This document shows positions 2,279 to 16,351 of a DNA stretch of 20,658 bases, piece by piece. Origin of the DNA: a virus; IMG/VR virus record IMGVR_UViG_3300020166_000139, positions 1-20,658 of that record. One strand, written 5' to 3'. The first letter of the stretch is position 1. The number at the start of each line of letters is the position of its first letter. The position numbers and the translations under genes were made by a program. The notes beneath the pieces are model-generated. The model did no database searches and was not told the DNA's origin. It saw nothing but the letters and a program-made list of their open reading frames with translations.

Positions 2279-3470
2279 CGACAAATATACAGCACTATTT
2301 AAGTCTGAAGCTAGATACTTTATTATAACAGGTGGTAGGGGTTCAGGAAAGTCTTTCGCAGTTACAGTCTTTCTAACACTCTTAACTATGTCTAGGAATA
2401 TAAGAGTCCTATTCACTCGTTATACAATGGTATCAGCTCACTTATCAATTATTCCTGAGTTCTTAGAGAAGATAGGGCTACTAGGATATGAAAACACCTT
2501 TAGCGTAAATAAAGCTGAGGTAGTCAATTTAGGAAACAAATCAGACATATTATTTAGAGGTATTAAGACATCAGCAGGAAACCAAACAGCTAGTCTAAAG
2601 TCATTACAAGGAATAAGTACTTGGGTACTTGATGAAGCAGAAGAACTTATTGATGAAAATATCTTTGATACTATTGACTTAAGTATAAGGGAAAAGAAAG
2701 TACAAAATAGAATCATATTAGTTTTGAACCCTGTAACTAAGGAACATTGGATATACAAAAGGTTCTTTGAAGAAAAAGGAGTACAAGCAGGTTTTAACGG
2801 CATTAAAGACAATGTATGCTATATCCATAGTACATACCTAGACAATAAAGATAATCTATCACAGAGCTTCCTAGAGCGTATTAAGAGTATAAAGCATAGG
2901 AACTTTAAAAAGTATCAGCATAAAATACTTGGAGGGTGGTTAGACAAAGCAGAAGGAGTAGTTTTTGAGAATTGGAGTATAGGAGAATTTAATCCTGATG
3001 GCTTACAAACTTCTTGCGGTATGGACTTTGGTTTTAGTGTAGACCCTGACTCATTGACTGAAGTAGCTATTGATAAAAAACATAAGAAGATATACTTGAA
3101 AGAACATCTTTACAGGAATGGGTTAAAATCACAAGAACTAGCTAAGATAATACTAGAAAAAGTAGACAACAAACTTATCATTGCAGACTCAGCAGAACCA
3201 AGACTAATAGCAGACCTTAGACATTTAGGAGTAAACATCAAACCTGTAAAGAAAGGAACTATTGAAAGTGGTATTACTCGTATGCAAGATTATCAATTAA
3301 TTGTAACTCCTGAATCTATAAACATAGCCAAAGAGCTAAACAATTACGCTTATCAAGATAAAGGTTCAAAATTATATATAGACAACTACAATCACGCAAT
3401 AGACGGCATAAGGTACAATGTAATTTACCACCTAGATAATCCAAACGCAGGAAAGTATTACGTACAGTAA
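2268..3470 (+). CDS. terL: Terminase large subunit (ATPase and nuclease)
   Basis: Packages DNA into proheads. The first ATG of this frame (2388) lies after the ATPase P-loop, so it cannot be the true start: the open frame upstream encodes Walker A GGRGSGKS at bases 2331-2354. The frame is open back to TAA 2262-2264, and CTG 2268 is the most plausible start, giving 400 residues beginning (M)NLSDKYTALF. With that numbering Walker A is 22-29, Walker B VLDEAEE 120-126, and the RNase H-like nuclease has acidic residues D253 (GMDFGF), D307 (IADSAEP) and D379 (NHAIDGIRY). Both domains are intact (Terminase_3-like type). Alternatives for the start are a +1 frameshift from the end of the small subunit, or a sequence error. 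The protein identity is very secure, the start is not. Confidence 0.9.
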   Translation: MNLSDKYTALFKSEARYFIITGGRGSGKSFAVTVFLTLLTMSRNIRVLFTRYTMVSAHLSIIPEFLEKIGLLGYENTFSVNKAEVVNLGNKSDILFRGIKTSAGNQTASLKSLQGISTWVLDEAEELIDENIFDTIDLSIREKKVQNRIILVLNPVTKEHWIYKRFFEEKGVQAGFNGIKDNVCYIHSTYLDNKDNLSQSFLERIKSIKHRNFKKYQHKILGGWLDKAEGVVFENWSIGEFNPDGLQTSCGMDFGFSVDPDSLTEVAIDKKHKKIYLKEHLYRNGLKSQELAKIILEKVDNKLIIADSAEPRLIADLRHLGVNIKPVKKGTIESGITRMQDYQLIVTPESINIAKELNNYAYQDKGSKLYIDNYNHAIDGIRYNVIYHLDNPNAGKYYVQ

Positions 3471-13838: not shown

Positions 13839-14753
13839 ATGGCATTTACTACAACAAGTAATTATGCAGGTAAAGCAGCAGGATTCTACATCTCAGCAGC
13901 TTTAAACCAAGCAAACTCACTAGAATACTTAACTATGATTGAAAACGTGAAATTTAAGAGTTCAATCCAAAAAATGGCAGGTTCATCTTTAGTAGCAGAC
14001 GCTTCTTGCGACTTTACTGACGCAGGTACTTTAGCATTGACTGAAAATGTACTTACTCCAAAGAACTTGCAAATTAACCTAGATTTATGTAAAGCTACTT
14101 TACTTGATTCTTGGGAAGCGATGCAAATGAGAGCAGGAGCAGGCGCACCACCACCTGCATCTTTTGATGACTATGTAATCTCTTATATGGGAGAAATTAT
14201 CGCTAATGGAGTTGAAGAATCAGTATGGTCAGGAGCAGCAGCTACAGGAGGACAATTTGAAGGGTTCTTAACAGCTACTACAGGAGCATTTGCAGTAGAT
14301 GGTACAGTAAACACTTCAACTGCTTCAGCAGCTTATACAGCAGCTAACATTATTGCTAACTTACAAACTTTAACGGCTGATATGGCAACTGATATTTCAG
14401 CAGTATTGAGAAAAGATGACTTACATATTTATATGAGTCCTAAAACTTACGCTTTATATGTTTCAGCAGTATCTACTTTAGGATATGTAAACGCTTACAA
14501 TATGAACGGAGACTATGCACCTGTATTTGAAGGGTACAAAATCGCTGTTTGTAACGGAATGCCAAACGACCAATTAGTAGCAGCAGAGAAGTCTAACTTA
14601 TTTTTCGGTACAGATTTAATTTCTGACCAAACTGCAAATATCAAATTAATGGATATGTCTGCTTTGGATGGTTCTGATAATATGAGGTTAGTTGCTCGTT
14701 ACTCAGGAGGTGTTCAGTTAGGTATCGGAGCTGATATCGTTCACCAATCATAA
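13839..14753 (+). CDS. Major capsid protein
   Basis: A 304-residue protein directly after the scaffold gene, with the Ala/Gly/Thr-rich composition of HK97-fold shell proteins in Bacteroidota phages. Visible parts are an N-terminal arm (TTSNYAGKAAGFYISAALNQ), QINLDLCKATLLDSWEAMQM (about residues 79-98), FDDYVISYMGEIIANGVEE (about 109-127, spine helix candidate), DDLHIYMSPKTYALYVSAV (about 192-210), a FEGYKIAVCNGMP strand and a C-terminal MRLVARYSGGVQLGIGADIV. The start follows AAAAATTATGG and fits the mature-type N-terminus. Order protease-scaffold-capsid and the post-gene hairpin at 14771 strengthen the assignment. Confidence 0.82.
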   Translation: MAFTTTSNYAGKAAGFYISAALNQANSLEYLTMIENVKFKSSIQKMAGSSLVADASCDFTDAGTLALTENVLTPKNLQINLDLCKATLLDSWEAMQMRAGAGAPPPASFDDYVISYMGEIIANGVEESVWSGAAATGGQFEGFLTATTGAFAVDGTVNTSTASAAYTAANIIANLQTLTADMATDISAVLRKDDLHIYMSPKTYALYVSAVSTLGYVNAYNMNGDYAPVFEGYKIAVCNGMPNDQLVAAEKSNLFFGTDLISDQTANIKLMDMSALDGSDNMRLVARYSGGVQLGIGADIVHQS

Positions 14754-14818: not shown

Positions 14819-15385
14819 ATGGCTTGTACAGCACTAACAAAAGGTAGGGGACTTGACTGTAACAGAATCAGTGGAGGAATTAAGAATGTATATTTTGGTG
14901 TTTACGACCAATTTAGTCCACTTCCTGTTGTAGCTTCAGGAGAAGTAACGGATATTGAAATGGCTTCTAACACCCTGTATAGATATACTACACCATTAGG
15001 AGTAGCTAGTCTTTCAGAAACAATTACAGGAAGTAGAGAAAACGGAACAATTTTTTATACTCCTTCAATAACAGTAATTCTTAACAGACTTACAAAAGAA
15101 GACCAAAATCAAATAAAACTTTTAGGTCAAACTAAATTAATAGTATTTGCAGAGTTGAACGCAACTTTAGCGAATGGACACAATGTGATAGTTGCTTTAG
15201 GAGTAACAAACGGAATGGAACTTAACGCAGGTACTGAAGATAGTGGTGCTGCATTCGGTGACAGAAACGGTTACACTCTTACATTTGACGGTTTAGAAAA
15301 TGAGCCGTTCCCAATGGTTGCAGACTACACTACAGACCCATTTGATAATTCAGCGTTCACAATGGGAACAATAGTTACTTCTTAA
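14819..15385 (+). CDS. Probable major tail tube protein
   Basis: A 188-residue beta-rich protein. It begins ACTALTKGRGLDCNRISGGI (residues 2-21) and contains a SLSETITGSRENGTIFYTPSITVIL strand pair (about 65-89), LTKEDQNQIKLLGQTKLIVFAEL (about 92-114), and a C-terminal GAAFGDRNGYTLTFDGLENEPFPMV (about 143-167). The N-terminal cysteine/glycine segment, the GTIFY-like strand and the final TLTFDGLE strand resemble tail tube proteins of Bacteroidota phages, which form the hexameric tube. Its separate ribosome-binding region after the capsid hairpin fits an abundant structural product. It could alternatively be another abundant virion protein. Confidence 0.6.
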   Translation: MACTALTKGRGLDCNRISGGIKNVYFGVYDQFSPLPVVASGEVTDIEMASNTLYRYTTPLGVASLSETITGSRENGTIFYTPSITVILNRLTKEDQNQIKLLGQTKLIVFAELNATLANGHNVIVALGVTNGMELNAGTEDSGAAFGDRNGYTLTFDGLENEPFPMVADYTTDPFDNSAFTMGTIVTS

Positions 15386-15391
15386 TCAGTA

Positions 15392-15405
15392 TTCTTTTAT
15401 ATATT
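15392..15405 (+). promoter_or_regulatory. Late promoter-like element, variant copy 6 (before structured RNA)
   Basis: TTCTTTTATATATT differs from copy 2 (TTCTATTATATATT) by one base. It lies seven bases after the tail tube stop and, unlike all the others, is not followed by a protein gene but by the structured 15406-15530 interval. Confidence 0.45.
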
Positions 15406-15530
15406 TCTTGAATGGGGTGGCTTAGTGGCTACCCTTTTCTATTAGTCTAGTGAAGGTGTTACAGCTTGTCTGTATATAGGAAACTAGCGTTCACTATGGG
15501 TTAAAGGGTGCTTCGGCATCCTTTTTCTCT
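15406..15530 (+). ncRNA. Candidate structured phage small RNA
   Basis: No protein frame fits the 184-base gap 15386-15569. It contains three structural units in order. Hairpin 1: GGGTGGC (15415-15421) pairs with GCTACCC (15428-15434), with one G-U pair and a TTTTC tail. Nested stem: TAGTGAA (15448-15454) pairs with TTCACTA (15490-15496) and encloses a small TACAG/CTGTA hairpin (15460-15464 with 15470-15474). Last comes a terminator stem at 15503-15524. A promoter-like element precedes it. If transcription starts just after that element, the RNA would be about 115-125 bases. The interval is visibly richer in G and C than its surroundings. The alternative is a tandem-terminator spacer between transcription units. 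Confidence 0.5.
15503..15530 (+). terminator. Intrinsic terminator with UUCG tetraloop
   Basis: AAAGGGTGC (15503-15511) pairs with GCATCCTTT (15516-15524), nine pairs with one G-U, closed by the extra-stable C(UUCG)G loop and followed by a T-rich tail to about 15530. It is a classic Rho-independent terminator. It lies 25 bases upstream of promoter-like element copy 5, marking a transcription-unit boundary. Confidence 0.85.
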
Positions 15531-15555
15531 TACTAACCAAACAAATTCAACTTTT

Positions 15556-15569
15556 TTCTATTATATAAT
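15556..15569 (+). promoter_or_regulatory. Late promoter-like element, copy 5 (abutting an ATG)
   Basis: Exact consensus TTCTATTATATAAT preceded by TTTT, directly followed by the ATG at 15570 with no spacer. It follows the UUCG terminator, so a new transcription start in this spot is needed, which supports promoter function. Confidence 0.65.
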
Positions 15570-16055
15570 ATGATACAAGCAATTACTGCAACAAACTTTA
15601 CAGCATATATATCAACTGAAGACAATCGCATAAATACTTCTGTTGCTAAGACGCAGATAAGACACTTAGTAAAGTTCATAAACGATATGGATGGAAGTGT
15701 AGAGTACGCTTACCCTACTGAACAAATAAACAATAGATATACGCAAATGGGATTCACTTACAGAGCTGATTTGGAAGGTTTAGACTTATATGACGCTGAA
15801 GTTCATTTATTACCTGCGGGATATTGGAAGTATGAAGTTTACGAAGTAAGTTGGGTTGGAACAGTTACTTTAGATGAAAATCACGCACCTTCTACAGAAA
15901 CTGAAGTGTTACACCCTGCTGCAAATGTTGGAATAGTACAAGGGTTAGTAACTAAAGGAAAAATGTATCTAGCAGAAAAAGACGGAACAGAACAAGTTCA
16001 ATACACACAATACCCTGAAACTTCAGGAACTAATTATATATATTACGGACAATAA
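15570..16055 (+). CDS. Virion structural protein (161 aa)
   Basis: A 161-residue beta-rich protein opening the transcription unit after the terminator. Parts that look structured are the start MIQAITATNFTAYISTEDN, RHLVKFINDMDGSVEYAYPT (about residues 31-50), RYTQMGFTYRADLEGLDLYDAEVHLLPAGYWKYEVYEVSWV (about 56-96) and a C-terminal strand pair LVTKGKMYLAEKDGTEQVQY. The GYWKYEVYE strand after a leucine/alanine-rich turn is a recurrent pattern in phage virion proteins of this host group. The next in-frame ATG is 40 codons in, so 15570 is the start despite the adjoining promoter-like element. Role in the particle unknown; tail or head decoration are options. Confidence 0.5.
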   Translation: MIQAITATNFTAYISTEDNRINTSVAKTQIRHLVKFINDMDGSVEYAYPTEQINNRYTQMGFTYRADLEGLDLYDAEVHLLPAGYWKYEVYEVSWVGTVTLDENHAPSTETEVLHPAANVGIVQGLVTKGKMYLAEKDGTEQVQYTQYPETSGTNYIYYGQ

Positions 16056-16066
16056 AATAAAAAAAA

Positions 16067-16351
16067 ATGGCAATAGACAATGTACAACAATTATTAACAG
16101 AGCAACTAGGAAAAAATAGATGTGATGTAATATCAACAACAGCAATGACAAGCAAAGATTATTATGCAGTATTCTTTCCTGTAGAGAGCGTAGTAGCTTC
16201 AATAGTGGCTTCTAACGTACAAACAGGTACAGGTAGTGCAATAGCTAACCTGCACACAACTTTCGCAGCAGGAACGACTTTATTCTTAAATGTAACGGCT
16301 ATCACTTTGACTAGTGGAGTTGCTATCTGTTACTATGACCAAGTAATATAA
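16067..16351 (+). CDS. Small virion-type protein (94 aa)
   Basis: A 94-residue, Ala/Thr/Val-rich, beta-predicted protein. The N-terminus is a short helix (NVQQLLTEQLGKN), the rest alternating strands: YYAVFFPVESVVASIVASNV (about residues 32-51), GTTLFLNVTAITLTSGVAICYY (about 69-90). Cys19 and Cys88 are single. It starts after a run of A (AAAAAAATGG) and its stop overlaps the next small gene (TAATG, 16349-16353). The sequence resembles small trimeric-type structural domains in phage particles, but no family is recognised. Confidence 0.5.
   Translation: MAIDNVQQLLTEQLGKNRCDVISTTAMTSKDYYAVFFPVESVVASIVASNVQTGTGSAIANLHTTFAAGTTLFLNVTAITLTSGVAICYYDQVI

Follow-up and report, generated by a model that had tools for sequence, protein, structure and literature searches.

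The g20–g21 gap and its flanking genes

The window, i.e. the whole stretch of DNA analysed here, is an entire IMG/VR record of 20,658 bases and possibly a fragment of a genome. Its virion genes encode a large terminase, a protease (Peptidase_S78_2), a major-head-like protein, a portal protein and a DUF6712 protein. The non-coding gap studied here (positions 15386–15569) separates g20 from g21 (table 1). The original prediction, made on the sequence alone, had taken g20 for a tail-tube gene, a label that is unconfirmed: PHROG 19091 is of unknown function and the fold model of g20 is poor. For g21, only a weak match to a phage baseplate protein was retrieved. The gap consists of three separate things, namely a terminator (T1), an optional RNA module and a promoter-like element (P) before g21.

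Table 1. Positions of the genes and predicted elements in the window.
Feature	Position	Strand	Description
Large terminase	2388–3470		Terminase_3 / Terminase_3C
Major-head-like protein	13839–14753		g20 directly 3′ of it
g20	14819–15385	+	ORF, PHROG 19091; last gene of the capsid operon
E1	15400–15405	+	TATATT, −10-like box, 8 nt 5′ of the hairpin of T1
T1	15414–15435	+	hairpin plus T-tract, predicted terminator
RNA module	~15445–15530	+	predicted three-way junction with its own terminator, about 85–87 nt; covariance-model match 91.5 bits
P1	15448–15454/15490–15496	+	100% of cells paired; two-sided changes in 4/7 pairs
J1/2	15455–15459	+	GGUGU in the window; GGUG invariant in 42/42
P2	15460–15464/15470–15474	+	loop CUUGU; 98.6% of cells paired; two-sided changes in 4/5 pairs
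P3	15477–15479/15484–15486	+	UAG/CUA, GAAA loop
CUAGCGUU	15484–15491	+	invariant strand through P3, J3/1 and P1; identical in 42/42
T2	15504–15526	+	stem 15504–15511/15516–15523, UUCG loop, U-tract; two-sided changes in 5/8 pairs
P element	15533–15567	+	CAAACAAA...TTTTTTCTATTATATA; phage-specific, promoter-like, just 5′ of the g21 ATG
g21	15570–16055	+	161 aa; module presence tracks it
g22	16067–16351		downstream of g21

Most relatives have a gap of simpler composition, typically 93–128 nt long: the stop codon is followed by a T-rich stretch with a TATA-like E1 box, T1, the P element (CAAATAAA...TTTTTCTATTATATA) and the ATG. T1 is kept in nearly all homologous gaps without the module and thus lies outside this optional part; judged from its sequence, it is the predicted ordinary terminator of the g20 (capsid-gene) operon. 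Of the 106 T1-bearing gaps, with or without the module, 102 have an E1-like box 2–10 nt 5′ of T1, so these boxes are not module-specific. Their mean score is 5.59, versus 5.07 for shuffled sequences, and they could be promoters. Gaps with the module come in two types. In type i, to which the window belongs, T1 is retained 5′ of the module and the sole promoter-like box is upstream of T1. In type ii (e.g. L033, L240, L286 and L337), T1 is gone, a box GTAGTTTTnnTATA directly abuts the module, and the module itself closes the operon. In one further gap (L125, 177 nt), the stretch from the stop codon to T1 is tandemly duplicated, indicating that the spacer at this site readily grows and shrinks.

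The P element (consensus CAAATAAA-N~12-TTTTTCTATTATATA) stands directly 5′ of gene starts. Within the window it is found at positions 1959, 3464, 12336, 13076 and 15533, at that strength on the + strand only. Across 38 contigs we counted 98 sites, 92 of them in front of the g17, g18 or g21 families. The distance from P to the start codon is 0–40 nt, which would imply leaderless transcripts or very short leaders if P is a promoter. P is probably the late promoter, in which case g21 would open a new unit and the gap would be an operon boundary.

A structured module with an invariant junction

Between T1 and P, the RNA is predicted to fold into a three-way junction (P1, P2, P3) followed by a terminator hairpin (T2), an order found in every copy of the module. 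The stretch 15408–15530 has a predicted folding energy of −46.7 kcal/mol (z = −5.27 against dinucleotide shuffles). An alignment was built from 15 seed sequences and then extended to 66 loci (42 distinct). In the alignment fitted to the covariance model (A4), 98.8% of the pair cells of the 42 distinct sequences are standard pairs and 14 of the 24 pairs show two-sided changes; none of 500 shuffles reached the A4 values for paired percentage, pair count or covariation score, and slid-structure controls paired at 32–54%. As A4 had been fitted to the model, a cleaner check is provided by a MAFFT alignment (A1), which gave 94.7% paired cells, two-sided changes in 12 of 25 pairs and again 0/500 shuffles.

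By these measures, the predicted stems P1, P2 and T2 are well supported by covariation. The support for P3 comes from three invariant pairs (UAG/CUA) and one covarying pair next to them (A-U and G-C), the loop also being variable; the P3 stem is longer in L318. A possible extension of T2 below the U-tract comes from columns 65–66 of the alignment, which also covary with columns 94–95, though mainly as a contrast between two clades. There are 118 G-U cells versus 0 A-C cells, so the functional RNA is assigned to the + strand. On this comparative evidence, the module qualifies as a structured RNA whose compensatory base-pair changes exceed those of the controls, i.e. as more than a chance fold.

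The original prediction had proposed a free-standing RNA of approx. 120 bases, with its own promoter, three consecutive stems and its own terminator, and had suggested looking for compensatory changes in related phages. Such changes are indeed present in the stems of the relatives' modules (14/24 pairs, 0/500 shuffles, as above). Its outer stem (15448–15454/15490–15496), inner hairpin (15460–15474) and UUCG terminator (15504–15523) were all borne out, as was, as a sequence, a second promoter-like element before the next gene. The nested stem is real, but a third arm (P3) had been missed, so that the structure is a three-way junction instead. Likewise, the RNA is structured and ends in a terminator of its own, but it spans ~85 nt (15445–15530) rather than starting at the first hairpin. 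That hairpin (T1) and the upstream promoter-like element (E1) both exist, but neither is a constituent of the module RNA, since both occur in nearly all module-less gaps and type ii has no T1.

While the letters of the stems vary, three segments do not differ among the 42 distinct sequences: GGUG in J1/2, UNUAG on the P2/P3 side and CUAGCGUU; this invariance is partly imposed for the loci fetched by pattern, as those searches demanded the core letters (GGTG, TMTAG and CTAGCGTT). The same core was found in 15 distinct gaps reached via the g20 or g21 protein. Within this protein-found set, the longer gaps held no diverged version of the module, and long module-less gaps contain other spacer sequence. 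Variable stems around invariant junction residues are the signature expected of a recognition or catalytic core.

Two resemblances within this region were set aside. A likeness of AGGGUGGU to a T-box was dropped, UGG not being kept in the 9 of the 42 sequences that carry GGUGU. A 15-nt near-repeat shared by g20, near its end, and the module (AGCGTTCACAATGGG at 15352–15366, AGCGTTCACTATGGG at 15486–15500) was judged a coincidence, because the codons for FDNSAFTMG are conserved in relatives without the module, such as L009.

An optional module at a single site

Searching IMG/VR with g20 and g21 yielded 153 loci, 144 of which had both genes and a readable gap. The module occurs in 24 of these 144 loci, or 15 of 88 distinct gaps; about 83% (five sixths) of the protein-found relatives do without it. 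In total, at least 50 distinct phage gaps contain it. Its position is fixed: among the matches listed by context-free pattern searches, all 59 true copies that were checked lie between homologues of g20 and g21 on the same strand, some of these loci being contigs also reached by the protein search. Each of 17 long module-bearing contigs contains a single copy. In module-less contigs, two weak matches (23 bits), only ~59 nt long, were regarded as terminator-like. A recurrent lookalike (GGTGTTCTGTAAGCC...TATAGGAAACTAGCGTT, in L191, L296, L297 and others) was treated as chance, as the model does not match there, and so was L383, a GTDB genome that matched a strict pattern.

The window and L098 differ cleanly by 87 nt (184 versus 97 nt) in the interval between the T1 tail and the P element. 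It is plausible that the module is gained or lost by exchange between two terminator tails, its ends lying in tails of similar sequence (ACCCTTTTCT / ATCCTTTTTCT).

On unrooted FastTree trees, as used throughout, module presence requires 11 changes for g21 versus 23 for g20 (143 rows). For a common set of 113, the numbers are 8 (g21), 19 (g20) and 16 (capsid protein), and the portal tree required 12 changes versus 9 on g21. As judged from these trees, the module follows g21 and not g20. Three relatives (L036, L084 and L086) have almost the same gap as the window and a g21 that is 96–100% identical, whereas their g20 is only 80–83% identical. Physical linkage combined with upstream recombination would produce such tracking of g21 without any functional tie. 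Downstream, g22 is present in 3 of 18 module carriers versus 18 of 20 non-carriers (contigs of differing completeness), which is consistent with a linked or exchanged cassette downstream of the gap; this anti-correlation was all that a co-occurrence search for a partner gene returned.

The closest isolates found are the Nonlabens phages P12024S and P12024L, which infect a marine flavobacterium; the P12024S gap has a terminator and no module.

Possible roles and nearest known RNAs

Known families gave no counterpart. No match was obtained in the window at the gathering cut-off of Rfam 15 (4227 families, including riboswitches, ribozymes, 6S and tmRNA). Nine relatives (L081, L076, L364, L306, L351, L355, L304, L329 and L309) gave two chance Rfam matches, both elsewhere, ARAGORN reported no tRNA or tmRNA, and the literature searched held no description of the module. 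As far as Rfam 15 and this literature reach, the module is best read as a new phage RNA family.

We tentatively propose that the module is a small phage RNA of ~85 nt from the 3′ end of the late capsid operon, which would accumulate and whose junction would probably be protein-bound. RNA polymerase passing T1 would transcribe the three-way junction and halt at T2; in relatives without T1, polymerase reaching the end of g20, or starting at E1, would transcribe the module. The compact fold and the terminator hairpin would leave a stable 3′ fragment, i.e. a small RNA accumulating late in infection, and the invariant junction (GGUG / UNUAG / CUAGCGUU) would be a recognition core, most likely for a phage or host protein. 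Structure, strand, conservation pattern, position, optional presence and linkage to g21 come from the data; discrete transcription, stability and protein binding are what we infer. The proposal draws on the covariation in P1, P2, T2 and one P3 pair together with the G-U bias, on the terminator 3′ of the junction in every copy, on the restriction to one gap and one copy per record in the long contigs, and on type ii, in which the module itself ends the operon; the invariant junction amid changing stems argues for recognition. Moreover, the module need not serve the downstream genes in cis, since those have their own promoter-like element. Against the proposal, E1 is not module-specific and, in type i, precedes T1; the co-occurrence search gave no partner gene, and the phage has no conserved antisense site.

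A role in cis only, at the transcript 3′ end, is possible if somewhat doubtful, and fits nearly as well as a small RNA: junction and T2 would serve as a back-up terminator and would cap the capsid mRNA to stabilise it, and no separate RNA would be made. The position of the module, always at the operon 3′ end, suits both readings; its replacement of T1 as sole terminator in type ii agrees with a cis role, and so does the clean indel against L098, as expected if terminator tails of similar sequence are exchanged when the module is gained or lost. However, terminators do not need an invariant junction sequence, type i already has T1, and the large majority of protein-found relatives manage without the module. 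An aptamer-like junction core directly 5′ of a terminator, in a module that tracks g21, also recalls a riboswitch-like attenuator, controlled by a ligand or a protein and setting read-through into g21 and later genes; this is unlikely, as there is no conserved antiterminator (any 6-nt stretch of the junction pairs with T2 in at most 35% of the sequences) and g21 has its own promoter-like element just 5′ of its ATG. The same small junction, with its invariant core and variable stems, could in principle belong to a self-cleaving ribozyme trimming the 3′ end of the capsid transcript, but a cleavage site is not deducible and no Rfam ribozyme matches, which makes this decidedly unlikely.

Base-pairing with phage mRNAs as an antisense small RNA is very unlikely: a small, terminator-ended element in the late region would suit it by position only, and for 17 of 18 contigs shuffled controls yield antisense matches just as long as the longest one in the phage's own genome. 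The single exception (L331/L441, near 14310) is an opposite-strand recurrence of 15 nt of the module, 70 nt away from a contig end; it has no counterpart in relatives and is probably an assembly artefact. As for packaging, the original prediction had left open a role like that of the phi29 packaging RNA, a phage RNA which also has a three-way junction. Beyond the neighbourhood of virion genes, nothing favours it, and we consider it next to impossible: the large terminase is of the Terminase_3 / Terminase_3C type and not a phi29-type ATPase (in a record that may be a fragment), most relatives of the same gene order have no module, and no pRNA was among the matches when the gap was searched against Rfam to E 10. 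Differing in motor, position and sequence, the module is refuted as a member of that family.

More speculatively, and in our view rather improbably, the invariant junction would be a new RNA core with its own activity (a self-cleaving ribozyme, or capture of a host protein or defence factor), and marine flavophage-like genomes would carry it optionally, as a cassette at a fixed site. To our knowledge, few structured RNAs have been described from tailed phages. This one is compact, with an unchanging core, and optional yet confined to a single site, and near-identical gaps without it provide natural controls that make its function directly testable, given a cultured carrier phage. Its covariance model offers RNA databases a searchable model.

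Among described RNAs, a 3′-UTR RNA has a precedent in the L17 downstream element (RF01708): this structured candidate, called highly unusual in bacteria (PMC2864571), is likewise conserved downstream of a gene, likely in a 3′ UTR, but its gene context and hosts differ from those of the module, which has no Rfam match. CisR, a small RNA derived from a 3′ UTR, is reported to act on an mRNA (PMC13250501); phage-derived small RNAs have been reviewed (PMC12197685). Like these, the module is terminator-ended and sits at a transcript 3′ end, from which it would be expressed; unlike CisR, it has no conserved phage antisense target, and its conserved part is a multi-branched core and not a seed. Lastly, the manA, wcaG and PhotoRC-II motifs (RF01745, RF01761 and RF01717) are structured RNAs from marine metagenomes that also occur in cyanophages and are tied to metabolic or photosynthesis genes (PMC2864571), whereas the module lies 3′ of a virion gene and carries its own predicted terminator.
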